Assembly (NCBI GenBank): GCA_902524945.1 | Contig: CABZFF010000006.1 | Coordinates: 1-64,000, forward strand | Direction of reading: 5' to 3' | Length of the DNA stretch: 64,000 bases | From: an uncultured Pelagibacteraceae bacterium | GTDB taxonomy: Bacteria; Pseudomonadota; Alphaproteobacteria; Pelagibacterales; Pelagibacteraceae | In this document: piece by piece, positions 49,910-62,750 of the stretch | Numbering within the stretch: position 1 is the first letter of the stretch | How the letters are laid out: every line of letters starts with the position of its first letter | Position numbers and translations under genes: made by a program | Notes under the pieces: model-generated | The model's input: only the letters and a program-made list of their open reading frames with translations | What the model was told of the DNA's origin: nothing | Database searches by the model: none

Positions 49910-50608
49910 TTAAATTCTAAAATTTGATTTTTTACTATCATTAAGAAAATTTTTGACTGTATCTATCGTTAATGATTTATTGCTTTTGCCAAAATTTGAA
50001 ATTTGATTAATCACTTTAGGAGGCATAGTAATTATATTACAATTTAATTGTTTTGCTTGAAGAAAATTATAAGCTTCTCGAGTGCTTGCCCATAAAATTT
50101 CAATATTCTTATTTTTTTTTGTTAAAGAGATACTTTTTTTAAATATTGGCACTGGGTCTTTGCCTTTATCAGCCATTCGTCCGGCAAATATTGAAATAAT
50201 AGATTTAGTTTTTTTATTTAATTTTTTATAAATTTTTTTTGTTTGTTCAAATGAATAAACTGCTGTGATATTCAACTTTACTCCTTTATCACTTAATTCT
50301 TTTATAACAGATCCCATAAACTTACCTTTAGAATTGATGACTGGTATTTTCACATAAATATTTTTTCCCCATGAATTAATCTTATAAGCCTGCTCAAGCA
50401 TATCTTTTGGAGTATCCGCAAATACCTCAAAAGAAATAGGTTTTTTTTTGCAATACTTAAGGATTTTTAAAGAGTATTCTTTATAACTTCTCGCACCAGC
50501 AAGTCTCATCAAGCTTGGGTTTGTAGTGAATCCATCAACTATAGTTTTTTTATTAAAAATTTTTATAGTGTTTAAATCAGCAATATCACAAAAAATTTTT
50601 GTCCTCAT
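49910..50608 (-). CDS. Transaldolase / fructose-6-phosphate aldolase-like protein
   Basis: A 232-residue short transaldolase (TalC/MipB type). Schiff-base Lys87 is in IYVKIPV. DGFTTNPSLM near the N-terminus, KLNITAVYSFEQ, FAGRMADKGKDP and the ILWASTREAYNF segment are family marks. It would link the pentose-phosphate intermediates handled by tkt with glycolysis. It shares one base with the pntB start. True transaldolase versus F6P aldolase activity cannot be decided from the sequence. Confidence 0.92.
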   Translation of the reverse strand: MRTKIFCDIADLNTIKIFNKKTIVDGFTTNPSLMRLAGARSYKEYSLKILKYCKKKPISFEVFADTPKDMLEQAYKINSWGKNIYVKIPVINSKGKFMGSVIKELSDKGVKLNITAVYSFEQTKKIYKKLNKKTKSIISIFAGRMADKGKDPVPIFKKSISLTKKNKNIEILWASTREAYNFLQAKQLNCNIITMPPKVINQISNFGKSNKSLTIDTVKNFLNDSKKSNFRI

Positions 50609-52011
50609 TAATCCAAGTTTTTTACAATGTCCTCAGTCATTTTTTTTGCATCGGAAAAAAGCATTAAAGTGTTATCTTTATAGAATAACTCGTTATCTAT
50701 TCCTGCATACCCTGGAGATAAACTTCTTTTGACAAATAAAACAGATTTACTCTTTTCAACATCTAAAACTGGCATTCCAAAAATTGGGCTTTTCGGGTCT
50801 GTTTTAGCAACCGGGTTAGTCACATCATTAGCTCCTATTACAAAGGCAACATCTGAGTTTGCAAAATCATTATTTATATCTTCTAGTTCAAATACTTCAT
50901 CATAAGGTACATTAGCTTCTGCCAATAAAACATTCATGTGACCTGGCATCCTGCCTGCCACTGGATGGATTGCGTAAGTAACTTTAATACCATTTTTTTT
51001 TAATTTATCTACCATTTCTCTCAGCGCATGTTGTGCTTGAGCTACCGCCATTCCATAACCTGGGACTATTATAACTGATGATGCATTTTTCATTAAAAAG
51101 GCTGCATCCTCTGCATTTCCACTTTTCACAGGTTTTTGATCTTGTTTCTCATTCTTGTCTGCAGACGTATTGTCTGCTCCGAATCCACCGAGTATCACAC
51201 TAAAGAAAGATCTGTTCATAGCTTTGCACATTATGTACGAAAGGATAGCCCCTGAGGATCCGACGAGAGCTCCAGTAATTATTAATGCAGAATTTTCCAG
51301 TGTGAAACCTATTCCTGCTGCAGCCCAACCAGAATAAGAATTAAGCATTGAAATTACTACAGGCATATCCGCACCACCAATAGGTATGATTAAAAGTATT
51401 CCAATAAAAAATGAAATTGCAATTAATGACCAATAAATGTTAGCAGTCTGTGTTTTGCAAAGATAAAAGATGAGTACAAAAATACTTATTCCTAAAAAAA
51501 GATTTAGATAATGTTGTCCAGTAAAAGTAATTGGTGCTCCGGACATAATACCTCTTAATTTTAAAAAAGCTATTATTGAGCCAGAAAATGTAACGGCTCC
51601 AACTGCAGCACCAATTGACATTTCAATTAAACTGGCAAGTTTTATATTTCCCGAAGAGCCTAAATTAAAAATATCAGGATTTAAGAATGCAGCTATTGCA
51701 ACAAATACAGCTGCGAGTCCGACTAAACTATGAAAACCTGCAACTAATTCTGGCATCGCAGTCATCGGGATTCTAAAAGCTATAAATGAGCCAATTGCTC
51801 CACCTATTAACAAAAAAACCAAAACATAAATCAGGGAAGTTGAGAAATTACCTATAGACAAAAATGTTACTAAAATAGCAATAAACATTCCTGCGATACC
51901 GAAATAATTTCCCTGTCTTGATGTATCAGGTGATGATAATCCTCTTAAGGCTAAAATAAATAATATGCCTGAAACTAAATAGAATATCGCGGATAAATTA
52001 GCTGATATCAT
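50608..52011 (-). CDS. pntB: NAD(P) transhydrogenase subunit beta
   Basis: PntB holds the NADP(H)-binding domain and most of the proton channel of the energy-linked transhydrogenase. The 467 residues start with a polytopic membrane part of about nine helices to residue ~275. A soluble C-terminal domain follows with VIVPGYGMAVAQAQHALREM, AIHPVAGRMPGHMNVLLAEA, GANDVTNPVAK and RSLSPGYAGIDN. It overlaps pntAB by four bases. It makes NADPH at the cost of proton motive force. Confidence 0.98.
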   Translation of the reverse strand: MISANLSAIFYLVSGILFILALRGLSSPDTSRQGNYFGIAGMFIAILVTFLSIGNFSTSLIYVLVFLLIGGAIGSFIAFRIPMTAMPELVAGFHSLVGLAAVFVAIAAFLNPDIFNLGSSGNIKLASLIEMSIGAAVGAVTFSGSIIAFLKLRGIMSGAPITFTGQHYLNLFLGISIFVLIFYLCKTQTANIYWSLIAISFFIGILLIIPIGGADMPVVISMLNSYSGWAAAGIGFTLENSALIITGALVGSSGAILSYIMCKAMNRSFFSVILGGFGADNTSADKNEKQDQKPVKSGNAEDAAFLMKNASSVIIVPGYGMAVAQAQHALREMVDKLKKNGIKVTYAIHPVAGRMPGHMNVLLAEANVPYDEVFELEDINNDFANSDVAFVIGANDVTNPVAKTDPKSPIFGMPVLDVEKSKSVLFVKRSLSPGYAGIDNELFYKDNTLMLFSDAKKMTEDIVKNLD

Positions 52012-52319
52012 TTTTTCTTATCTTTCTTTTTTTTGTACATCTGAAGCATTCTTTGGGTCACAAGAAAACCTCCAAAAATATTTACAGCTGCTAAAATTAT
52101 AGCCGCATATCCAAAAATACTCGATGTACTAAATGTTACTTCAGACGAGCCTGCTAAAGCAGCAATTATCGCTCCTACAATTATGACTGAAGAAATAGCA
52201 TTAGTTACTGACATTAACGGTGTATGTAAGGATGGTGTCACACTCCAAACTACATAGTAACCAACAAATATTGATAAAATAAATATACTTAATCTAAATA
52301 TGAATGGATCTATCTCCAT
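52008..52319 (-). CDS. pntAB: NAD(P) transhydrogenase subunit alpha, membrane part
   Basis: A 103-residue membrane protein with three to four helices and the conserved stretch VWSVTPSLHTPLMSVTNAISSVIIVGA, which matches the membrane domain of E. coli PntA. As in Rhodospirillum rubrum, the alpha subunit is split into a soluble part and this small membrane part. It starts one base after pntAA and overlaps pntB by four. Confidence 0.97.
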   Translation of the reverse strand: MEIDPFIFRLSIFILSIFVGYYVVWSVTPSLHTPLMSVTNAISSVIIVGAIIAALAGSSEVTFSTSSIFGYAAIILAAVNIFGGFLVTQRMLQMYKKKKDKKK

Positions 52320-52320
52320 T

Positions 52321-53415
52321 TTAAACCTCCTTAATAAGAGTTTTGCTTATTATTTCATCCTCTAAATTTATATTAAAAACTTTTTTCTCCCTACTATACA
52401 AATTTCTTATAAAGCTAAATAAATTTTTTGCGTATAAATTTGATGCGGTCAAAGGCAATCTATTCATTAAGTTTTTAACACCAATTATTTTTACTCCATT
52501 AATATTATTTATTTTTCCAACTTCTGAAAACGCAGAATTTCCACCTTGTTCAGTCGCTAAATCATAAATTATTGAACCAGGTTTCATTAATTTTACTAAT
52601 TCTTCGTTCAAAATTCTTGGCGCTGGTTTTCCAGGTATCAAAGCAGTGCAAATAACAATATCGTTCTTTTTCAAAGCATCGCGCATCATCTCAGCCTGTT
52701 TTTTTTTGTATTCTTCGCTTAATTCTTTAGCATATCCACCTGAAGTTTCCATATCTTCCTTTTGATCAACTGTTAAAAATTTTCCTCCTAAACTTTCTAC
52801 TTGTTCTTTTGATGCAGATCTTACATCCGTAGCGGATACTATCGCTCCTAATCTTTTAGCTGTAGCAATAGCTTGTAATCCAGCTACTCCGGCCCCAATT
52901 ACTAAAATCTTAGCAGCAGGTACTGTTCCAGCTGCAGTCATCATCATTGGAATGGCTTTTTCAAATTCATAAATAGAGTCTATTACCGATCTATAACCCG
53001 CTAAATTAGACTGAGATGATAAAACATCCATGGATTGAGCTCTAGTTATACGAGGCAAAAGCTCTAAAGAGAAAACGTTTATTTTTTTTTTTGTTAATTG
53101 ATTAAGTTTATTTTTATTCTTACTTGGATTTAACATACCAATTAAAGTAATATCTTCTTTTAAATAATCAATTTCTTCATCTAAAGGACAATTCACTTTT
53201 ACCAATAGATTACATTGTTTTAGTACATCTAATGAAGAATTTTTTATTTCTACTCCAACATTTTCATACTCCTTATCGGCTATTCCAATATGAGATGCAT
53301 AATTTTTTTCGATACAAATTTTAAGTCCAAGACCAATAATATTTTTTGCAGCTTCAGGTGTTAAAGAAACTCTTTTTTCTTGCGATAAATCTTCTTTTGT
53401 TGATCCAATTATCAT
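52321..53415 (-). CDS. pntAA: NAD(P) transhydrogenase subunit alpha, NAD-binding part
   Basis: The soluble 364-residue NAD(H)-binding subunit, similar to alanine dehydrogenase. It has GSTKEDLSQEKRVSLTPEAA, the nucleotide-binding VIGAGVAGLQAIATAKRLGA, TDVRSASKEQVESLGGKF and DLATEQGGN. It lacks the C-terminal membrane helices of the fused E. coli PntA, consistent with the split three-subunit arrangement. The tiny cox subunit IV gene precedes it by 19 bases. Confidence 0.97.
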   Translation of the reverse strand: MIIGSTKEDLSQEKRVSLTPEAAKNIIGLGLKICIEKNYASHIGIADKEYENVGVEIKNSSLDVLKQCNLLVKVNCPLDEEIDYLKEDITLIGMLNPSKNKNKLNQLTKKKINVFSLELLPRITRAQSMDVLSSQSNLAGYRSVIDSIYEFEKAIPMMMTAAGTVPAAKILVIGAGVAGLQAIATAKRLGAIVSATDVRSASKEQVESLGGKFLTVDQKEDMETSGGYAKELSEEYKKKQAEMMRDALKKNDIVICTALIPGKPAPRILNEELVKLMKPGSIIYDLATEQGGNSAFSEVGKINNINGVKIIGVKNLMNRLPLTASNLYAKNLFSFIRNLYSREKKVFNINLEDEIISKTLIKEV

Positions 53416-53434
53416 TTTTAATATCTTTTATTAA

Positions 53435-53545
53435 TTAAAGTAATGTAATAGCTAAAATGGCTAATAATACAATTACAGCTATTGTTGCCCACAAGACTAG
53501 CTTTGTGAAACCATTGTAAGTTTTCTTGAAATCGTTTTCGCTCAT
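53435..53545 (-). CDS. Small aa3-type cytochrome c oxidase subunit IV-like membrane protein
   Basis: A 36-residue open frame with a polar N-terminus (MSENDFKKTYNGF) and one membrane helix (VLWATIAVIVLLAILAITLL). The pattern (K)TY.GF.KL..W.TI matches the bacterial aa3-type oxidase subunit IV family (COX4_pro_2), whose gene lies beside pntA in other alphaproteobacteria as I recall. An AAGG Shine-Dalgarno-like sequence precedes the ATG at 53545, six bases after rpmJ. It is easily missed because of its size. The membrane location is secure; the oxidase role is by family resemblance and context. Confidence 0.72.
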   Translation of the reverse strand: MSENDFKKTYNGFTKLVLWATIAVIVLLAILAITLL

Positions 53546-53551
53546 TTTTTA

Positions 53552-53677
53552 TTAGCCTTGTCGAGCTTTAAATTTAGGATTTTTTTTATTAATTACGTAA
53601 AGCTTTCCTTTCCGCTTTACTAATTTAGAGTTTAGATCTCTTTTTTTTAATGATTTTAATGAGCTAGCAACTTTCAT
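53552..53677 (-). CDS. rpmJ: 50S ribosomal protein L36
   Basis: A 41-residue basic protein starting [20 protein letters not shown] and ending [20 protein letters not shown], the long zinc-independent form of L36 found in proteobacteria. Cysteines of the zinc-ribbon form are absent. Its ATG is only about ten bases after the 5S rRNA 3' end, on the same strand, leaving little room for a separate promoter or a normal Shine-Dalgarno. It is likely transcribed with the 5S gene. Confidence 0.93.
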
Positions 53678-53686
53678 AATTTTAAT

Positions 53687-53804
53687 AGCCTGGCAACGTC
53701 CTACTCTCCCATATCTTAAGACAAAGTACCATCGGCGCTGAAGGACTTAACTTCCGAGTTCGGAATGGGATCGGGTGTGGCCCCTTCGCAATAATTACCA
53801 GGCA
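53687..53804 (-). rRNA. rrf: 5S ribosomal RNA
   Basis: Read leftward, the 118-base sequence starts TGCCTGGTAATTATTGCGAA. It contains the universal 5S segments CCACACCCGATCCCATTCCGAAC and GGAAGTTAAG, and ends GTTGCCAGGCT, pairing with the 5' end in helix I. No 23S or 16S rRNA lies upstream within the window (protein genes start 84 bases away), so the 5S gene is unlinked from the other rRNA genes here. Ends are estimated from helix I pairing. Confidence 0.95.
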
Positions 53805-53808
53805 GTGT

Positions 53809-53837
53809 TTTATAGTGTTTTTGAGAAATTAAGTAAA
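53809..53837 (-). promoter_or_regulatory. Candidate promoter of the solitary 5S rRNA gene
   Basis: Read leftward, TTTACT (53837-53832) and TATAAA (53814-53809) are spaced by exactly 17 bases. The -10 box ends five bases before the estimated 5S 5' end, as expected if transcription begins at or next to the mature end. This supports independent transcription of 5S. Confidence 0.6.
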
Positions 53838-53887
53838 GTGAATTTTTAGAGAGTTTAATAACAAAACCGCTTTAATTTTACAATTAT

Positions 53888-55093
53888 CTATGTTTTTTGA
53901 TTACTAATAAAATTAAAAAAATTTTTATAATTTTTGGCCATCTTTTTTGAGGAGAATGATTTATCTATAAGAGTTTTGCCGACTTTACTTCTCTGTTTCC
54001 AGGCACTCTTATTTTTTACGAAATTTAGTAATGCTAATTTTAGTTCATTTTTATTATTTGGCTTAATTAATTTTGAATTTTTATTATTTAAAAATTCCAT
54101 TACACCTCCAACTTTTGTTGCTAAAACAGGAGTTTTTGCGGATAAAGCCTCTGCCAAAGAAAGTCCAAAGCCTTCAAAATCTTTTGTAAGCGAAATTAAT
54201 AAATCAAGTTTTTTAAGAATTTTAAAACTATCCTCGTGAATATAACCTGTAATCACAAAGTATTTTCTTAAATTAAGATTATTTAACTTTTGCTTAAGTT
54301 CTATTAAATATTCTTTCGAACAATTACCAATAAAGTAAACTTTAATTTTTTTCTTAATTTTGCATGGTAATTCGTTAAATGCATTAATTAAATCCTCGTG
54401 TCCTTTGTTTTTTTCAACTCTTGATAATATTCCTATTTTTAAAGTTTTAGAGTTTTTAAATAATTTATTAATTTTTGTTAAACTTTTATCATCTGGATTA
54501 TTTTTAACTCCATTATAAATTATTTTTGTTTTTAATTTTGGTGAAAATAAGTTTGTGTTCAATTTAATATTTTTCTTCGTAGCTTTTGAAACAAAGATTA
54601 AACCATTTATGCTTTTATTAATTAAATAATCAATCATTCTTAGTAAAAAGTTCCAAATATAAGGCTTGGTGAATGAGTGATGAATTAATAACAACTTAGT
54701 TGGAAACTTTAAAAAATTACTTGCTAAAATACCAGAAACCTCAGACCTAAAATCTCCATATCCGCCACACTCAGCTAATAAGATATCAAATCTATAATTT
54801 TTGAGTATGAAAAAAAATTGTATTATAGACATAAAAAATAAAAAAGGTCTTAAAATGAAAAAGATGAATTTTAAGATTATATTTTTAAAAAAAATTACAT
54901 TTAAGGAATTATAATAATGAAATTTTACATTTTTTTCTTTCAACTTTTTTTTTAAGATTAAAGTTGCCTTATTTGTCCTATTAGTAAAGATTACAAATTC
55001 ATAACTTTTAAATACTTTGTCATTTAAAAGATTTTCTAAATGAGTTGTAACACCACCCGGTTCGAAATTTTCCCATAAAATTCCAATTTTCAT
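53888..55093 (-). CDS. GT4 family glycosyltransferase
   Basis: A 401-residue GT-B enzyme. The N-terminal half has ILWENFEPGGVTTHLENLL (acceptor side) and a hydrophobic stretch near residues 70-95. The C-terminal half has IGILSRVEKNKGHEDLINAF, then the donor-binding E-x7-E region FEGFGLSLAEALSAKTPVLATKVGGVMEFL. It probably extends a lipopolysaccharide or capsule glycan. It is the first gene right of the 5S rRNA and the last of the leftward accessory series, 38 bases after the sulfatase-GDPD gene. Confidence 0.94.
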   Translation of the reverse strand: MKIGILWENFEPGGVTTHLENLLNDKVFKSYEFVIFTNRTNKATLILKKKLKEKNVKFHYYNSLNVIFFKNIILKFIFFILRPFLFFMSIIQFFFILKNYRFDILLAECGGYGDFRSEVSGILASNFLKFPTKLLLIHHSFTKPYIWNFLLRMIDYLINKSINGLIFVSKATKKNIKLNTNLFSPKLKTKIIYNGVKNNPDDKSLTKINKLFKNSKTLKIGILSRVEKNKGHEDLINAFNELPCKIKKKIKVYFIGNCSKEYLIELKQKLNNLNLRKYFVITGYIHEDSFKILKKLDLLISLTKDFEGFGLSLAEALSAKTPVLATKVGGVMEFLNNKNSKLIKPNNKNELKLALLNFVKNKSAWKQRSKVGKTLIDKSFSSKKMAKNYKNFFNFISNQKT

Positions 55094-55131: not shown

Positions 55132-57606
55132 TTAATTTAGATTATTAGCAAACTGGTCATTTTTTAATAATATAATACCAATATTATCATTAGAAATAAT
55201 TTCATTGAATGAATTTAGATTTTCTATATTCCAAATATGCCATTTATAATTTTTAAAATCTTTAAAATTCTTTATTGCTTTGTATCCAGAAAAATTAAAT
55301 GTAATAGAGCCAATTTTAGTATTATTTAAAAATTTTATGATTTCTTTGAATTTTTTATCACACTTAAATTTCTCTTCTGCTTTTAAATTTTCCTCAGAAC
55401 AATTATTTAAGAAAGATGTTGGCATGTAATAAGCTATCTCAACGTTATTTAAATTATTAATCTCATCTATACAATCTTTCCATTCTTGATTTTCTAAATT
55501 TTCTATTGATGAGGTGGGTGTTTCAACTAAGGCACTTAAATAATTTTTTGAGTTCTTTCTTATCCAATTAGAAGCGAATTTACATTGTTTAGTTTCATCT
55601 ATGTTTTTCGAGTCAAACCAAATTGTATTTTTTTGAAAATTCGATTTAAAAAAATCATCAATTATCAAATTTGTGTCATTCTGTAATCCATGTGCAGATA
55701 AAGCTTTGTCTTTGAAAAAAAGAATATCTGTCTCAAAACATCCATTAGATAAAGAGGATTGAAATTGATTAATAAACGAATTCGCTCGATGCTTACATAC
55801 TAAGTTTTTTATATTTTGATTATCTGAAAGTTTTTTGCTTTTTAAAAAATTATTTAGTTGCCAAAGAGTAATACTGGTATCTTGTTTAGAAAATTTTTTT
55901 TCAAGATAAGTGTCACCTTTTAAACTTCCTTCAAATTCCCAATAAACAGGAACTTTGCTTAAAATTCCATCCAGATCGATTCTATCGTAGATAAATTTTG
56001 ATTCTAAACTTTTAAATTTATCTGCTTTGTACAAAACTTCTTTTTTTTTATTTAATACATCGATATCATTCAAATAAAGTATAATGTCACTCAATACTTT
56101 TAGGGTGAGGTTTTTACTTTCTAATTTTTTTAACTTATCAAATTTTTCTTTATAAATATTATAAGCACTGTCGTTAAAAAAAATAATTAAGGGCACATGT
56201 AACATTTCATATGTAAGGCGGCTAGAATCGTGACCTCTTGCTGATGCTGGAGACTCACCATGATCTGAAAAATAAATAAATATCATTGGCTGAGAATTTT
56301 TTTCAAAATTTGAAAAACTACAATTATAAACTTCACCGATTGTTTTATCTATATACTTCATGACTGAGTCGTATTCGCTTATTAATTTAAAATTTCTAAA
56401 ATCTTTACCCAAAAAATTTTTTTTATTGATGTAATTTGGATATTGAAAACCTATCTGATTTGGAATTGTATCTAGATATCCTCCATATTGTCCGTGACCT
56501 GCGTATGAGTGAAGTATTGATAAAGTAGAAGAGTTATTTTTAAAAATATCGTTATTTTGACAAAAGCTTTCATAAAAAAAGTCATGGTCTTTTATTTTTG
56601 GCTTATATCTATTGCCAAGAAATTTTCTTGAGTTATCAAAATTTTCCTCTTTTAAGTTCCAAGGATAAATTTGATCTTTAGTATTAAAAACCAACTTAGT
56701 TGCATGATTGTGACCACCATAAGATCCTTGGGTACTAAATAAAAAAGTTTTAATATCAGTTTTATTTAGTACATCAACAATAGACAAATTATTTTTCTGA
56801 TGATTATGTATTAAAGAACAATCCTCTTTTGGTTGATTTATACAAAGAGAGAACGCACTCCATAATGCGTCGACTGTATGGGTATGGGATGCATAAACTC
56901 TATCAAATTTGATAAATTTTTTATTCTTCTCTAGTAATTTACTCAGTCTCGGAGTGGTTTCAAAAGGATATCCATATAAACTTAGATTTAGTGCAGAGGT
57001 GCTTTCTCCAACATATACTATAGTACTTAAGGGATTATTTGAATTTCTTTTTACTTCATAGTTCAAAATATTTTTTTTAAATTCGTTTTCAATTTTTGTT
57101 AAATGTTCTCCAACTTCTAAACTTGATTTTGCAAGCGATAATATTAAATAAAAACCAAAAACTAACGCAACGAAAAGTATAAAATTAAAGTACCTACTTA
57201 AAATTAATATATCAATTTTTCTTGTTTTGAAGAAGTATTTTATAAACAGATAAATAGTCATTGAGCTAGCAAATGAACTTAAAAATATTAACCAAAAACG
57301 TCTTCTTCTGAATATCTCGGGATCTAATAAAAAAGAAAAAAAAGTATTTGTATAAAATATAGCTTCACCTAAATCTGCATTTAATTCACTAAGCGAGTCC
57401 TGGCCAATAGAAGCAAAAAATTCTGGCAAATATGAATAATGATAAAATAGAAAAAATAAAGGAAGCAAAGCTGTAAAACAACTTTTAAAAAAATTATTTT
57501 TTTCAATAAAAGAATAAATAGAGTAAAAAAATAATAAAACTAATGAAGTAAATACCAAAAGTTCTTCGACAAATATTGTTAAAAAGATTTTATATATGAA
57601 TTCCAT
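55132..57606 (-). CDS. Membrane sulfatase/phosphoethanolamine-transferase-like protein fused to a GDPD-like domain
   Basis: An 824-residue fusion. Residues 1-160 hold about four to five membrane helices. Residues about 190-530 form an alkaline-phosphatase-fold domain like EptA-type phosphoethanolamine transferases: VGESTSALNLSLYGYPFETTPRL with Glu201 and Ser202 where EptA has Glu and the Thr nucleophile, His371, and SDHGES (447-452). Residues about 600-824 resemble a glycerophosphodiesterase barrel: His606-Arg607 (KHRANS), Glu625-x-Asp627 (FETDIL), His639 and Asp665-x-Lys667. EptA relatives move phosphoethanolamine from lipid to glycan at the periplasmic face, leaving diacylglycerol. The extra domain could act on glycerophosphodiesters. 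It follows the VTC gene by 3 bases. Confidence 0.78.
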   Translation of the reverse strand: MEFIYKIFLTIFVEELLVFTSLVLLFFYSIYSFIEKNNFFKSCFTALLPLFFLFYHYSYLPEFFASIGQDSLSELNADLGEAIFYTNTFFSFLLDPEIFRRRRFWLIFLSSFASSMTIYLFIKYFFKTRKIDILILSRYFNFILFVALVFGFYLILSLAKSSLEVGEHLTKIENEFKKNILNYEVKRNSNNPLSTIVYVGESTSALNLSLYGYPFETTPRLSKLLEKNKKFIKFDRVYASHTHTVDALWSAFSLCINQPKEDCSLIHNHQKNNLSIVDVLNKTDIKTFLFSTQGSYGGHNHATKLVFNTKDQIYPWNLKEENFDNSRKFLGNRYKPKIKDHDFFYESFCQNNDIFKNNSSTLSILHSYAGHGQYGGYLDTIPNQIGFQYPNYINKKNFLGKDFRNFKLISEYDSVMKYIDKTIGEVYNCSFSNFEKNSQPMIFIYFSDHGESPASARGHDSSRLTYEMLHVPLIIFFNDSAYNIYKEKFDKLKKLESKNLTLKVLSDIILYLNDIDVLNKKKEVLYKADKFKSLESKFIYDRIDLDGILSKVPVYWEFEGSLKGDTYLEKKFSKQDTSITLWQLNNFLKSKKLSDNQNIKNLVCKHRANSFINQFQSSLSNGCFETDILFFKDKALSAHGLQNDTNLIIDDFFKSNFQKNTIWFDSKNIDETKQCKFASNWIRKNSKNYLSALVETPTSSIENLENQEWKDCIDEINNLNNVEIAYYMPTSFLNNCSEENLKAEEKFKCDKKFKEIIKFLNNTKIGSITFNFSGYKAIKNFKDFKNYKWHIWNIENLNSFNEIISNDNIGIILLKNDQFANNLN

Positions 57607-57609
57607 CTA

Positions 57610-58356
57610 TTATTCTGAGGTTTCACTTCTCACTTTACAATTGCATACACCTAAAACAAATTTAGAAATCGATCTCCTGTTTAAATTATATGATTGTATA
57701 ATTCTATGAAACCAAGCAGGAATACTTCTTTCAAACTTTACCTCTAGAATTGAATTGCCTGGCTTGTATTCTAATGGAAATTTAAATTTTTTATCATTCT
57801 CAAATAAATTTCCTGTTTTCGTCGAAATCAAATCAGAGTCAAAGGTTAATCTAAAGTATAAGCCAAATTTGTTTATTAAAGGCCTTCTGTTGTAATCAAT
57901 CATTATCTTAGGTTTGATATTTTTTCTTTTTACATCATAAATAAAATCTTTTATTAGATCATTACCGTTATATTTTTTACTTAATTCATCTAAATTTTTT
58001 AAAGTCTCAAAGTATTTTATGTCATTTTTATCAATCATAATTCTTTTTTTAATTATTCTGTCATGAGCTCTACCTTTCATTTCAAAAAAAACTGGGCTTT
58101 TAGAATTAAAACTTTTACCGTAGCTCCTTAATCTAAATTTCTTTCTTACTTTAATCCCATCTACTTTTTCAAAAAAATTGCTATAATCATTATTGTCAAA
58201 ATATAATGATCTAACCAAGTATTTATGATTTTTACTTTTCGAGGCAAAATTATCAATATTCATGAAATTTAAAGATTGATTAAATATTTCATTTGAAATT
58301 TTTGAACTCATGAAATATTTAAACTCGTATCTTAAAAAAATTCTATTATCGATCAT
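57610..58356 (-). CDS. VTC-domain (polyphosphate polymerase-like) protein
   Basis: A 248-residue VTC/triphosphate-tunnel protein. Typical blocks are RYEFKY (9-14), VRSLYFDN (48-55), DGIKVRKKFRLRSY (66-79), the charged strand FFEMKGR (90-96), IMIDYNRRP and the C-terminal SILEVKFERSIPAWFHRII. In yeast Vtc4 the same fold polymerises phosphate from ATP; bacterial homologues are mostly uncharacterised. No membrane segment is seen, so a cytoplasmic face is likely. It overlaps the CotH gene by one base. Polyphosphate synthesis is a family-based guess; capping or transfer of a nucleotide is also possible. Confidence 0.88.
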   Translation of the reverse strand: MIDNRIFLRYEFKYFMSSKISNEIFNQSLNFMNIDNFASKSKNHKYLVRSLYFDNNDYSNFFEKVDGIKVRKKFRLRSYGKSFNSKSPVFFEMKGRAHDRIIKKRIMIDKNDIKYFETLKNLDELSKKYNGNDLIKDFIYDVKRKNIKPKIMIDYNRRPLINKFGLYFRLTFDSDLISTKTGNLFENDKKFKFPLEYKPGNSILEVKFERSIPAWFHRIIQSYNLNRRSISKFVLGVCNCKVRSETSE

Positions 58357-61010
58357 TAATTTTTATTTTGAGAAAAATTTTTACCTATTATTTTTTTTCT
58401 ACCTTTAATTTTTGTGTTAAATATTTCAATTTTAGAATTTTGTATTAAGTTTGTATCTTTTTTTTTATTAAAATCTTCAGGATCCATTGTGGTCACAAAC
58501 TTGTTTTCTTCAGACTCGATTAATGAGTCAAAAACTTGAGCATTACCACCATTTCCATAACGCCAATTTTTTGCATAACTTGCTAATTGAATCTCATTGT
58601 TTGAAAAAATTACATCAAAAAATTTTCCTTTTGAGCTATCCTTTATTGCTGCTCCAATTTTATTATTTTTAAAAATTGAATTCTTTATAATCACATCTGA
58701 ATTTTCACCGATAGAGACTCCTTTGTCTTGTGAGTTAACCACCTCTAAATTTTCAATTATCGCTTTGGATTCCATAAAGTCTACTCCATCATTTTTGGAA
58801 TCTTTAATTTTGACATTTTTAAGTATAACGTTATTTGAAATATCAATATCTATTGCATCGCTATAAGCGTTTTTAATTTCAATATTTTTTAATAAAATAT
58901 TTGATGAATAAATAATATGAATTGTATCATCAAACAATTCATTAAATGAAAATTTTGAATTTGATAATTTTATATCGGAGGAGTTATGAATTGATAACAT
59001 AGATAAAAACTTATATTGATTTAAATTACCCCCACTACCACCTTGAAAAATTACGTTATCCAAAATACTCTCTTTAGAACCTTTGCCAATTATAGCTACT
59101 GTGCCCCAAGGTTTATCCCCTTTTTGATTTTTTTTGAAAATTATAGGCAACTCTTTTGTTCCCTCAGCTGATACTTTTCTTTTAAATACAATGTGTTTAT
59201 TCGGTTTAATCAAAAATTTAGTTCCTGGAAGTATCTTGACCTCATTTTCAAAAATTAAATTTTTATCGACTAAGATTGTTCCATTCAAAGAAATAGTTTT
59301 TGGTATTTTATTTACCTCCAAATTTACAATATTATTTGATACATTAGCTTTGACTGCACTTTTAAATTTTTTCTCTTGTAATATGAAATTTTTTTTACTA
59401 AAAAAATTTAAACTTTCAATCTGTGTTGGAACTGCACCGTTATTTGCGATCATTCTGAAATAAGTGTTAGAATGATTAATTTTATAATTGTGAAATTTAG
59501 TGCTAAGATTATTATTTTGTTTGAATCTATTTGAATAAAAAGCAAGAGGTATTTTGAATCTGTTAATTTCTTGATCCACAAAAAATTTTGGCTCATTTTC
59601 CTCAATTATATTATTGTAATTAACATCTACACCTACCCATTCAGGCATTAGATCATCGGGAAATTTTATTTTTAAATTAAATAAAGGAGTATAACCATTA
59701 ACAGATACATCAAAATTTTTTAAGTTTTTGTTCCATGAACTTTCTGGATTATCATTTAAAATTTTCAGAAGTTTGTTTTTATTCTTAGATAGCATTGAAA
59801 GAATTCTTTTCATCTCTTGATGATGATCTTTACCTCTTACATCATAAGGTTCCTTTTTTTGTACGGTGATAAGGTCTTCTCTGATTTTTTCGATATTTAA
59901 TTCAACTTTTTCAATTACATCATTTTCAAAAAGATAATGGTAAATCCATTGATATTTTTTATGGATGTAATTAGTGTTTTTATTTAGGAAAGTATTCAAA
60001 TCATTTGAGCTAAAATCCAATTCAAAGTCATCTCTAGATGCCATACCAGGGTCGACGATAAGTTGAGTAATTTTTCCATTCCATGGATCTAATATTAATC
60101 TCATATTATGGAAAAAATCGTGGTGAACATTGTTAGTAATTGTTAAAAAAGCATCGAATTTAGAAAAGTAATCTATATCTATATAATCATTTAAAGAAGG
60201 ATCTGAGTAATATTTATTTGATTTAAGTGTTTTAAGGAATTTTTTAAGATCTTTAGTGCTATTAGGATTTTCTTGATTAAAAATTGCTAATTTTGACCAA
60301 ATATTTGGATTATTAAATAGATTTCTATTTAGTCCTATATGGTACTCTGTAGCGTGATTTTCTCCCTTGTAAATGTTCGTAGGCATTAATTTATTTTTTC
60401 TTAAAAAAGTCTCATCGATTCTTTCTTGCTCAATATATAAACCGTTTGACTCACCATTTACATAAAGTTCTACTAAATTATATTTTTGAGTGATGAGACC
60501 CATATTTTCAGAAATGAAATATGGGAGGTATTTATCGGCTTTAAATATTTTGTAATCATAATATCTATATCCATCAATCAACTCATTTCGTCTTGTTTTA
60601 ATTCTCAATTGTTTTTTTTGATTTAACCAATTAATTGGATTATCGCCTCTAAATCTCAATCTAATTTCTTGAAAATTAATTTTTTTGTTGGGATAATTAA
60701 TATATGCCTCTACCCAATCCTTAGTAGACTGTGGTAAATTACTTAAAAGTTTTCTTGAATTTTGCTCGCTTACAAAAATACTTACTCGAGGAAAGTTGGT
60801 TTGGTAAGTTTTGTCAAAAATTTTATTTTTAAATTTTTTCAATTCTGAAAAAAAAATCTGTTTTGGCCAAGAGAAATTTGTTTGATACACATGAGCAGAT
60901 TGATAACCAAATTGATATTCAAACTTTAAAACCTTAAAAGAAAAAAGCAGGAAAATTCCAAGAATTACAGGTAATACGTAAGGGTAAAGTATTTTAATTA
61001 TTTTTCTCAT
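58356..61010 (-). CDS. CotH-kinase-like protein with C-terminal parallel beta-helix
   Basis: An 884-residue exported protein. A membrane anchor lies at about residues 7-25. A CotH-type atypical kinase region follows, with RLRFRGD (117-123), the CotH signature NGLYIEQERID (189-199), HHDFFHN (296-302) and DPWNGKITQLIVDPG (308-322). A beta-sandwich-like stretch leads to a right-handed parallel beta-helix from about 590 to 870 with repeated NNVILKNVKIKDS-type turns. CotH of Bacillus phosphorylates spore-coat proteins; functions elsewhere are unknown. It overlaps the VTC gene by one base and follows the TPR gene by one. The kinase motifs are divergent, so activity is uncertain. Confidence 0.82.
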   Translation of the reverse strand: MRKIIKILYPYVLPVILGIFLLFSFKVLKFEYQFGYQSAHVYQTNFSWPKQIFFSELKKFKNKIFDKTYQTNFPRVSIFVSEQNSRKLLSNLPQSTKDWVEAYINYPNKKINFQEIRLRFRGDNPINWLNQKKQLRIKTRRNELIDGYRYYDYKIFKADKYLPYFISENMGLITQKYNLVELYVNGESNGLYIEQERIDETFLRKNKLMPTNIYKGENHATEYHIGLNRNLFNNPNIWSKLAIFNQENPNSTKDLKKFLKTLKSNKYYSDPSLNDYIDIDYFSKFDAFLTITNNVHHDFFHNMRLILDPWNGKITQLIVDPGMASRDDFELDFSSNDLNTFLNKNTNYIHKKYQWIYHYLFENDVIEKVELNIEKIREDLITVQKKEPYDVRGKDHHQEMKRILSMLSKNKNKLLKILNDNPESSWNKNLKNFDVSVNGYTPLFNLKIKFPDDLMPEWVGVDVNYNNIIEENEPKFFVDQEINRFKIPLAFYSNRFKQNNNLSTKFHNYKINHSNTYFRMIANNGAVPTQIESLNFFSKKNFILQEKKFKSAVKANVSNNIVNLEVNKIPKTISLNGTILVDKNLIFENEVKILPGTKFLIKPNKHIVFKRKVSAEGTKELPIIFKKNQKGDKPWGTVAIIGKGSKESILDNVIFQGGSGGNLNQYKFLSMLSIHNSSDIKLSNSKFSFNELFDDTIHIIYSSNILLKNIEIKNAYSDAIDIDISNNVILKNVKIKDSKNDGVDFMESKAIIENLEVVNSQDKGVSIGENSDVIIKNSIFKNNKIGAAIKDSSKGKFFDVIFSNNEIQLASYAKNWRYGNGGNAQVFDSLIESEENKFVTTMDPEDFNKKKDTNLIQNSKIEIFNTKIKGRKKIIGKNFSQNKN

Positions 61011-61011
61011 A

Positions 61012-62040
61012 CTATTTGCAAGAAGAATTGACTAAATTTAATTTATCAAATTTCATCGTAAATATAATTTTATCTATTTTCTTATAAACTTGATCAAGTC
61101 TTAAATTTACTATTTCATTATTTTCTGCAGAAAAAAAAATCTGATTTTGAGAAGTATTATTATTAAAAAAGGTATTCTTAGATAAAATTACTAAATCTTT
61201 TTCTGAAATATCATAGATGTTATTTTCTGAAAAAAGTTTTAAATTTTTTATCTCTAAACTAACACCAGGATTAAAACTAAAAATCATTTTTATCAATGAA
61301 ATATTAAATGGCTTCTCAGGAATTAATTCATATTGATCAAATTTACCATTATTAATTCCTCTAATGATATAATCGTTTTCATCTTTAGATTTTAAAGTCT
61401 CAAGCCTAATTGCAAAATCATTAAAATTAAAACCATCGAATTTAGTTAATTGAAATCTTTTTTGTTTTCCTCCAAATTCAGATTCTAAATATTTGTTACA
61501 ATAAAAATTAAACTTTTCAGTATTTTTTTGATTTAAAAAAATCTGCAAAGCAAGTCTGTAAGGTTCTGGGTCCAAGGGTGATAGAGCTATAGCTTTATCT
61601 ATTTCTATTACTGACTCTTCAATTTTATTGTTCGCATATAACGATTTAGCATACCATATTTTGGCTTCATACAATGAAGGATCTAAATTAGTTAATTTTA
61701 AAAAAAATTCTTCTAAAGCGCCATAATTTTTTTCATCGACGATACTAGATTGTACTAAATTTGCCACGTCATAAATACCAATAAGTAATCTACTTTTTCC
61801 ACTAGATATTTTTTCCGAAACTATAATAAAATTTTTAAGTTTATTATTGATTAAATTATAATCTGGTTCTGGTTGCTTTAGGAGGGTTTGCATTGAAACT
61901 ATCATATAAATTTTATAACTATTTAAAACTGAATTTAATGTTGATTTTCTAAGATTTGTATTAAAAGTAATCAGAAAAAGAGCTAACAGAAATAAAAAAA
62001 ATATTAGTAAAAAAAACTTTTTGTAAATATTTTTAAACAT
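61012..62040 (-). CDS. Membrane-anchored TPR-like protein of the CotH/VTC cassette
   Basis: A 342-residue protein with one N-terminal membrane helix (about 7-27), then helical repeats in residues about 90-190 that fit TPR units (SLYEAKIWYAKSLYANNKIEESVIEIDKAIALSPLDPEPYRLALQIFL). A beta-rich C-terminal domain (residues about 195-340) matches nothing I recognise. It is probably periplasmic, tethered to the inner membrane. Its place between DUF4956 and CotH, with gaps of 17 and 1 bases, suggests a scaffold for the cassette. Confidence 0.75.
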   Translation of the reverse strand: MFKNIYKKFFLLIFFLFLLALFLITFNTNLRKSTLNSVLNSYKIYMIVSMQTLLKQPEPDYNLINNKLKNFIIVSEKISSGKSRLLIGIYDVANLVQSSIVDEKNYGALEEFFLKLTNLDPSLYEAKIWYAKSLYANNKIEESVIEIDKAIALSPLDPEPYRLALQIFLNQKNTEKFNFYCNKYLESEFGGKQKRFQLTKFDGFNFNDFAIRLETLKSKDENDYIIRGINNGKFDQYELIPEKPFNISLIKMIFSFNPGVSLEIKNLKLFSENNIYDISEKDLVILSKNTFFNNNTSQNQIFFSAENNEIVNLRLDQVYKKIDKIIFTMKFDKLNLVNSSCK

Positions 62041-62057
62041 TTAGAGTAAAAGGGAAA

Positions 62058-62750
62058 CTAATAATCGACATCACTTTTAGCAGCAATAATTACAATTTCT
62101 TTTAATCCTTTAATTTTTGAAAGTTCTGACAACAGGTCAGTTTGGTTTAGTTCATCTTTCAACACAATATCAAAACTCACTTTTATGCTTTTGCTATCTT
62201 CAGAGCTCTCTGAACTTAGTAGAGTTGATGATTTGGAGAATTTAGAAATAGTTTTGTTGAAAAGTTTTGAAATTTCAGAATTGTTTGATGGGGTTCTAAA
62301 TTGTAAAATAAATTCACTCTTTATTATTGAGCCAAAATTGGTTTTATGTAAAATCAATGCTATTGAGCTTATTATGAATGTCCCCGAGATAGCTAAGAAA
62401 TAGCTCCCTGTTCCAGCAGCCATACCTGCAGCAAGAGACCAAAAAATATAAGCTGTATCTTTTGTATCTTTTACAACTGTTCTAAATCTAATAATTGAGA
62501 GAGCTCCAACCAAAGCAAATGCTCTTGCTAAGCTGTTTCCTATTATCATAATTACCATACAAACAATAACTGCAACAAAAATATTTGTTATCATAAAAGA
62601 TTGGGAATAACTTAATCCTTTATGAGTAAATTTATAAATTACAGAAATTATTAATCCTAATATAAATGATAGAATTAAATTAATAATTATTTCTTGTGGA
62701 AGATAAATTGAAGTAAAACTGTCAGCTATATTTTGTAAATTATTATTCAT
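62058..62750 (-). CDS. DUF4956 family membrane protein
   Basis: A 230-residue protein with four membrane helices in residues about 20-140, including the family hallmark ALVGALSIIRFRTVVKDTKDTAYIFWSLAAGMAAGTG, and a soluble C-terminal domain (about 145-230) of ferredoxin-like alternation. DUF4956 proteins have no proven function; genes for them are commonly found beside VTC and CotH genes, as here. It is the first gene of the leftward five-gene cassette. The ATG is at 62750, with no obvious Shine-Dalgarno. Confidence 0.88.
   Translation of the reverse strand: MNNNLQNIADSFTSIYLPQEIIINLILSFILGLIISVIYKFTHKGLSYSQSFMITNIFVAVIVCMVIMIIGNSLARAFALVGALSIIRFRTVVKDTKDTAYIFWSLAAGMAAGTGSYFLAISGTFIISSIALILHKTNFGSIIKSEFILQFRTPSNNSEISKLFNKTISKFSKSSTLLSSESSEDSKSIKVSFDIVLKDELNQTDLLSELSKIKGLKEIVIIAAKSDVDY

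Follow-up and report, generated by a model that had tools for sequence, protein, structure and literature searches.

Can one envelope protein both transfer a phospho-head group and cleave one? The question is raised by a gene in a 64,000-nucleotide stretch of DNA from an uncultured Pelagibacteraceae bacterium (contig CABZFF010000006.1 of assembly GCA_902524945.1, positions 1 to 64,000 of the forward strand; hereafter the window, and its source the window genome). A first-pass annotation, made from the letters alone, had described positions 55132-57606 as a phosphoethanolamine-transferase-like sulfatase fused to a glycerophosphodiesterase (GDPD)-like barrel, and had suggested that both activities might reside in one protein. 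The region is a single open frame throughout its 824 codons and lies on the minus strand, which that annotation had left unspecified; the residues it singled out all carry the numbers it gave them (GES 200-202, SDHGES 447-452, His606-Arg607, Glu625 and Asp627, His639, Asp665 and Lys667). The anatomy is real and conserved, and the functional interpretation, drawn from sequence and structure models, is plausible. We consider it somewhat probable that the protein sits in the inner membrane, faces the periplasm, and joins a head-group transferase to a tethered GDPD-type phosphodiesterase that is probably active. The parts of the gene are as follows, with PET standing for phosphoethanolamine transferase.

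55132..57606, minus strand: open reading frame of 824 amino acids, sulfatase/PET domain fused to a GDPD-like barrel (open frame; homologs of 819-863 amino acids in four other genomes)
57088..57606, minus strand: membrane-anchor region, residues 1-173 (hydropathy segments 4-35, 104-122 and 131-163; helices in the structure model)
55927..57087, minus strand: sulfatase-superfamily (PET-like) domain, residues 174-560 (PF00884 at 196-481; fold match to EcEptC 6a82_B and NmEptA 4kav)
56875..56877, minus strand: Thr244, predicted phospho-accepting nucleophile (EptC/EptA alignment; T, T, S, T, T in the five proteins)
55135..55884, minus strand: GDPD-like (alpha/beta)8 barrel, residues 575-824 (structure models, VIA-align, viral Foldseek)
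55789..55791, minus strand: His606, a predicted catalytic residue at the end of strand 1 (invariant 5/5; on the GDPD HR motif along the hhalign path)
55726..55734, minus strand: Glu625-x-Asp627, predicted metal ligands, strand 2 (invariant 5/5; aligned to GDPD ExD)
55690..55692, minus strand: His639, predicted catalytic (invariant 5/5; on the histidine of the GDPD HD motif)
55606..55614, minus strand: Asp665-x-Lys667 at the end of strand 3, where GDPDs have ExK (invariant 5/5; placed by strand order, not aligned to ExK by hhalign)

The pairing of these two domains is not peculiar to the window genome. Both occur on one chain, in the same order, in four further proteins: three from other SAR11 genomes (G008, G057, and G1134, with 60, 51, and 46% identity to the window protein) and one from an alphaproteobacterium of another family (G375, 26%). 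An assembly or frame artefact was rejected given the presence of the gene in five genomes. All matches to the C-terminal domain (5/5) lie in proteins that also carry the sulfatase domain. When the window protein is compared with the other four part by part, identities are 60, 53, 31, and 48% over the sulfatase part and, in the same order, 62, 54, 23, and 50% over the barrel. Because both domains diverge in step, the fusion appears to be old and inherited as a unit, rather than a recent accident.

The fusion is sparsely distributed. A whole-protein search found it in 3 of 150 relatives, and a profile of the C-terminal domain matched 2/385 genomes of the class, 2/297 of the family, 4/169 of the genus, and 1/398 of the phylum, counts that include the window genome and come from overlapping samples with many incomplete genomes. 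In both the family and the order of G375 the profile matched one of two genomes, G375 itself. A first scan of genome contigs gave nothing, and a second gave two loci, which are the G057 and G008 copies again. No relative was found in viral contigs in repeated scans, and no C-terminal relative in phage records at E<=0.01 or in plasmid records at E<=0.1; at E<=10 the G375 barrel has four chance-level plasmid matches and the window barrel none. The whole protein matches 545 plasmid records, none of which spans 80% of the query; in the best 20, coverage is 41-47% and falls on the PET half. In a literature search limited to open-licence papers, no report of a fusion protein of this type was found.

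For the first domain, the fold class is clear. Hydrophobic helices precede residue 165 by both hydropathy and the model, in agreement with the membrane helices originally described, and they are followed by a sulfatase core of the expected PET type. PF00884 matches residues 196-481 (E 1.5e-19, 70.9 bits against a curated cut-off of 25), and EptC and EptA are the only significant PDB sequence matches of the window protein. Residues 174-560 have the PET-type sulfatase fold in the structure model, where residues 179-555 superpose on E. coli EptC (6a82_B) with Z 21.1 over 299 aligned residues at a root-mean-square deviation (rmsd) of 3.8, and the full-length model matches Neisseria EptA (NmEptA, 4kav) with Z 20.2.

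The assignment of the nucleophile has been corrected. The first-pass annotation placed Ser at this position instead of the Thr of EptA, a claim that, judging from the alignments, stems from a misread GES. In pairwise alignments to EptC and EptA, GESTSALN of the window protein pairs with GESTQ and GETTRAAN. RPYT and TST, the last Thr of which we take to be the nucleophile position of these enzymes, pair with an HTHT stretch that runs up to residue 244. That column is Thr244 in the window protein, with no Thr-to-Ser swap, and Thr244 is thus the predicted nucleophile of the first domain. Ser202 was rejected for this role: it merely trails the zinc-ligand Glu201, and EptA has GETT there. In the five-protein alignment Glu201, Asp448, and His449 are invariant, and residue 244 is Thr in four proteins and Ser in one. 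For MCR-1, the PET ligands listed in a passage on that enzyme are Glu246, Thr285, Asp465, and His466 (PMC10285318).

The proposed transferase half resembles CptA/EptC and EptA/MCR in its N-terminal membrane region, its sulfatase fold (that of their periplasmic PET domain), its metal-site Glu/Thr/Asp/His and, in one genome, a neighboring DgkA gene. It differs in scoring below the corresponding NCBIfam cut-offs, in the Ser that replaces Thr244 in one of five proteins, and in the 250-residue C-terminal barrel, which has no counterpart in those families.

For the second domain, GDPD identity is supported but more weakly, by a moderate fold match and by conserved residues. A full-length model built from 4 sequences has a mean predicted local distance difference test (pLDDT) of 61, mostly 80-91 across residues 660-800, and shows eight strands with alternating helices (603-606, 623-631, 660-666, 689-696, 722-727, 767-771, 788-792, and 809-814), that is, an (alpha/beta)8 or TIM-barrel fold, the absence of which would have told against the first-pass annotation. 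A separate model of the C-terminal part (5 sequences; mean pLDDT 71.7, predicted template modeling score 0.72) retains seven of the strands; strand 1 is missing where pLDDT falls below 50. Against known structures, the first eight VIA-align rows are all GDPDs (top 2otd_A, Z 11.5, 181 aligned, rmsd 3.4), and GDPD titles occur in 14 of the best 50 rows. Against viral models, the top five Foldseek matches, including all four at E<=1e-3, are GDPD/GP-PDE proteins. The barrel formed by residues 575-824 is thus nearest to GDPDs by predicted fold. This part of the first-pass annotation stands in terms of structure; its sequence does not place the domain in PF03009, and we call it GDPD-like.

The catalytic pattern read into this barrel is conserved beyond chance expectation. 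Of its 250 positions, 35 are invariant among the five proteins, as are 9 of 64 ionizable positions, and His606, Glu625, Asp627, His639, Asp665, and Lys667, which the first-pass annotation had picked out from a single sequence, all fall within those nine (hypergeometric P ~1e-6), a set kept in five homologs down to ~23% identity. The originally proposed Arg607 does not share this conservation, being variable and Ala in G375. Along the full hhalign path to GDPDs, His606-Arg607 lies on HR, Glu625-x-Asp627 on ExD, His639 on the histidine of HD, and the Trp792 region on vWTVN. This path does not bring Asp665-x-Lys667 onto the GDPD ExK; a DxK stands in its place. The His, ExD, and His residues are ordered on strands 1-2 and are placed in both models, with strand 1 present in the full-length model only. 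In addition, all six Cys residues of the C-terminal domain are invariant and none of the five outside it is, which fits an oxidizing compartment and periplasmic disulfides.

In comparison with GDPDs (PF03009; e.g., 2otd, 3qvq, and GlpQ 5t9c), the barrel is alike in its predicted fold, the strand-1 His, the strand-2 ExD and subsequent His, and a Trp near the last strands. It is unlike them in the absence of a PF03009 match, the DxK in place of ExK, the six conserved Cys, the non-conserved Arg of HR, and the fusion to a transferase. The pattern His-x-x-Asn, ExD, His, and Asp-x-Lys also resembles what we take to be the Menorin/FAM151 motif. FAM151 proteins are described as PLC-like in part of one report (PMC6965129). 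Membership in that family was rejected: none of the five proteins matches PF10223 at E<=10, and the biological context is unrelated; a PF10223 search also matched 0/200 genomes of the phylum, yet 0/14 controls matched either.

How might the two domains work together? Under the proposed reading, domain 1 (174-560) would be a zinc-dependent PET-type transferase in which Glu201, Thr244, Asp448, and His449 bind the metal. Thr244 would take a phospho-head-group from a phospholipid, most likely phosphatidylethanolamine and possibly phosphatidylglycerol; diacylglycerol would be released, and the head group would be passed to a surface glycan or to lipid A/core. Domain 2 (575-824) would be a disulfide-stabilized GDPD/PI-PLC-type barrel with a metal phosphodiesterase site made up of His606, Glu625, Asp627, His639, Asp665, and Lys667. 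Its target may be a phosphodiester located on the same face, and its most plausible role is to trim a glycerophosphodiester or the glycan that carries the head group. Both domains may act on one substrate, and one protein may both transfer and cleave, as initially suggested; the periplasmic side, the activity, the donor, and the acceptor are likewise putative.

Known systems offer partial parallels. The best outside support for the mechanism would come, by analogy, from Shewanella vesiculosa HM13, where a GDPD-like protein, HM3345, adjoins an OpgE-type PET, HM3344, and Wzx in a surface-glycan cluster, according to a portion of the report on that strain (PMC6971210). The two predicted activities are the same and are encoded by adjacent genes; the proteins are separate, and the likeness is by annotation only. 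An excerpt from a paper on lipooligosaccharide structure states that the vesicle cargo P49 is freed in this strain when surface-glycolipid genes, a PET among them, are lost (PMC7281004). A fusion of PAP2 with MCR is noted for Sutterella wadsworthensis in a section of another paper (PMC10285318); it resembles the present protein in joining a PET domain to another lipid-phosphate enzyme, and differs in that the partner is an N-terminal PAP2 phosphatase, with no GDPD-like barrel.

Several observations weigh against the two-enzyme proposal. The first domain lies far below the NCBIfam cut-offs for CptA and EptA: the best model for the window protein, CptA (PRK10649), scores 71.2 bits against 404, and EptA scores 33.6 against 660, so that the protein is not filed as either. 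Neither Pfam nor NCBIfam has a family that matches residues 575-824. PF03009 matches neither the window protein nor any of the five C-terminal members, and its sole match in the whole window genome is another gene (C3:92332-93171). Comparison of hidden Markov models (HMM-HMM) links the barrel only weakly to a set of 24 GDPDs from Alphaproteobacteria (probability 1.4%, E 0.038, score 20.95, a score equalled by 1/200 column shuffles, with 12.1 for the reversed model), and the global mode gives no match to GDPDs. The structure models are shallow (4-5 sequences), and His606 and His639 lie in or beside low-pLDDT stretches. A glucanase leads the unrelated barrels in VIA-align; at Z 10.8 it is less than 1 Z below the GDPDs, and other barrels lie within 1 to 1.5 Z. 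In Foldseek against PDB, an EAL domain is alone in reaching E<=1e-3, and a GDPD comes fourth (E 5.1e-3). Finally, the parallel between HM3345 and the barrel is one of description.

Two alternatives concern the barrel. The C-terminal domain could be catalytically dead, a binding module that holds the acceptor, a phosphodiester or a glycan, in position for its transferase partner; its scores below every family threshold, the Asp for Glu of the GDPD ExK, and the variable Arg607 are what such a module might show. We nevertheless regard this as improbable: the six proposed-site residues are among just nine invariant ionizable residues of 64, and binding alone would not need them. Even less probable, in our estimation, is that the barrel belongs to another family, such as an EAL or sugar-phosphate barrel, with a convergent GDPD motif. 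The EAL domain 4y9o is the top PDB Foldseek match (E 6.3e-4, TM 0.37) and unrelated TIM barrels reach Z 9.4-10.8 against 11.5 for GDPDs, but GDPDs fill the leading VIA-align rows and account for every significant viral Foldseek match, and the hhalign path brings H, ExD, and H onto GDPD motifs.

The genes around the fusion bear on its role. Those flanking it in the window are the following.

57610..58356, minus strand: VTC-domain protein, directly upstream, 3-base gap (PF09359, E 2.6e-37)
58356..61010, minus strand: CotH kinase-like protein with C-terminal beta-helix (PF08757, 3.1e-12; PF13229, 9.2e-15)
61012..62040, minus strand: TPR-like protein (weak TPR match, E 0.18)
62058..62750, minus strand: DUF4956 membrane protein (PF16316, 6.9e-16)
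53888..55093, minus strand: GT4-type glycosyltransferase, 38 bases downstream (PF00534, 1.4e-23)

The fusion gene and the upstream genes share one strand and look like one operon, given upstream-side gaps of 17 bases or less. The VTC gene is present without the fusion gene in G032, and linkage of the two is therefore not fixed. Separately, we note that a set of VTC, CotH-kinase/beta-helix, TPR-like, and DUF4956 genes occurs here in a SAR11 genome (window 57610-62750, minus strand), and that the VTC gene matches in 8/150 relatives, besides itself one strongly (G032, 53%). CotH, polyphosphate polymerase, and DUF4956 genes are described as grouped beside Pel clusters in Gram-positives in part of one source (PMC7112168). 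The window and G057 copies of the fusion lie in or adjoin surface-polysaccharide genes. In G375, a DgkA gene (PF01219, 1.9e-18) adjoins the fusion gene, followed by pntB, pntAB, and pntAA. DgkA recycles the diacylglycerol made by PET enzymes and is a frequent PET-gene neighbor, according to passages in two reports (PMC7559476, PMC10285318). As a separate observation, the fusion gene is near pnt (transhydrogenase) genes in 3/5 loci, in differing arrangements (window 50608-55093; L007 4645-10469; L009 9061-14871).

A different setting occurs in G008 and G1134 (gene names by eye except those profile-scanned). There, one flank of the fusion gene is an NDUFA9-like gene with KdsD-like and LPS (lipopolysaccharide)-export-like genes beyond it, and the other is an SMR gene followed by DAGK, PlcP-like, Agt-like, PhoR-like, PstS, and PstC genes. 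A survey of the NDUFA9-like gene gave matches in 53/61 genomes, and 30 loci were inspected, 27 of the same genus and 3 of a second family. Of the 27 same-genus loci, 25 have SMR directly next to it, one (G008) has the fusion, and one (G024) has a plain EptA; the three second-family loci have neither fusion nor EptA. Many of the second-family matches contain an in-frame TAG or TGA. The plain EptA-type gene of G024 (L080 3-1589) is convergent with the NDUFA9-like gene, is cut by the contig end, and scores 495.5 bits to the PET domain model. The fold, the residues, the DgkA neighbor, and an EptA in the same slot together support the transferase half, and the LPS-export/Kdo-type and surface-polysaccharide neighborhoods also favor the proposed reading. 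The window genome's own copy of this site (L078 1750-9107, contig C3; gene names other than GDPD by eye) has SMR, a ugp-type ABC operon, canonical GDPD, and DAGK genes, and no fusion; it has the appearance of a variable phosphorus-related island.

This setting brings in a further explanation, phosphorus salvage, in which the protein would strip head groups from membrane phospholipids under phosphate starvation, the sulfatase domain serving as phospholipase C in the periplasm and the barrel cutting the resulting or incoming glycerophosphodiesters. It would account for the DAGK, PlcP-like metallophosphoesterase, Agt-like glycosyltransferase, PhoR-like kinase, PstS, and PstC genes beside the G008 and G1134 copies, for the ugp-type, GDPD, and DAGK genes at the same site in the window genome, and for the VTC (polyphosphate-type) gene in the window operon; plcP-agt has been tied to lipid remodeling in SAR11, as described in a portion of one study (PMC4796936). 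We think salvage unlikely, though the least so of the three alternatives. The fusion gene is an optional insert, missing from the site in 25 of the 27 same-genus loci; two of the five copies adjoin glycan clusters instead, and G375 has neither setting; and Pho-box-like sites, sought with a consensus, are not above chance (none in L008 and L014, and 3 in the window against 3.6 expected).

What would a head-group transferase with a tethered phosphodiesterase mean for these organisms? Tentatively, and with more doubt than confidence, we suggest a surface enzyme that writes and trims: one domain would put head groups from membrane lipids on a surface glycan, and the other would remove or shorten them or recycle glycerol phosphate. 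Marine gammaproteobacteria would have this system split over two genes, as in HM3344/HM3345. SAR11 genomes are small, and the retention of an 824-residue envelope enzyme with two domains by a few of them is worthy of attention. The fusion gives a defined set of residues for mutation, and it may act as a Rosetta stone, from which side-by-side PET and GDPD-like proteins such as those of S. vesiculosa HM13 are predicted to work as a unit on surface glycolipids. If the proposal is true, the fusion would show what GDPD-like genes do next to PET genes in surface-glycan clusters.

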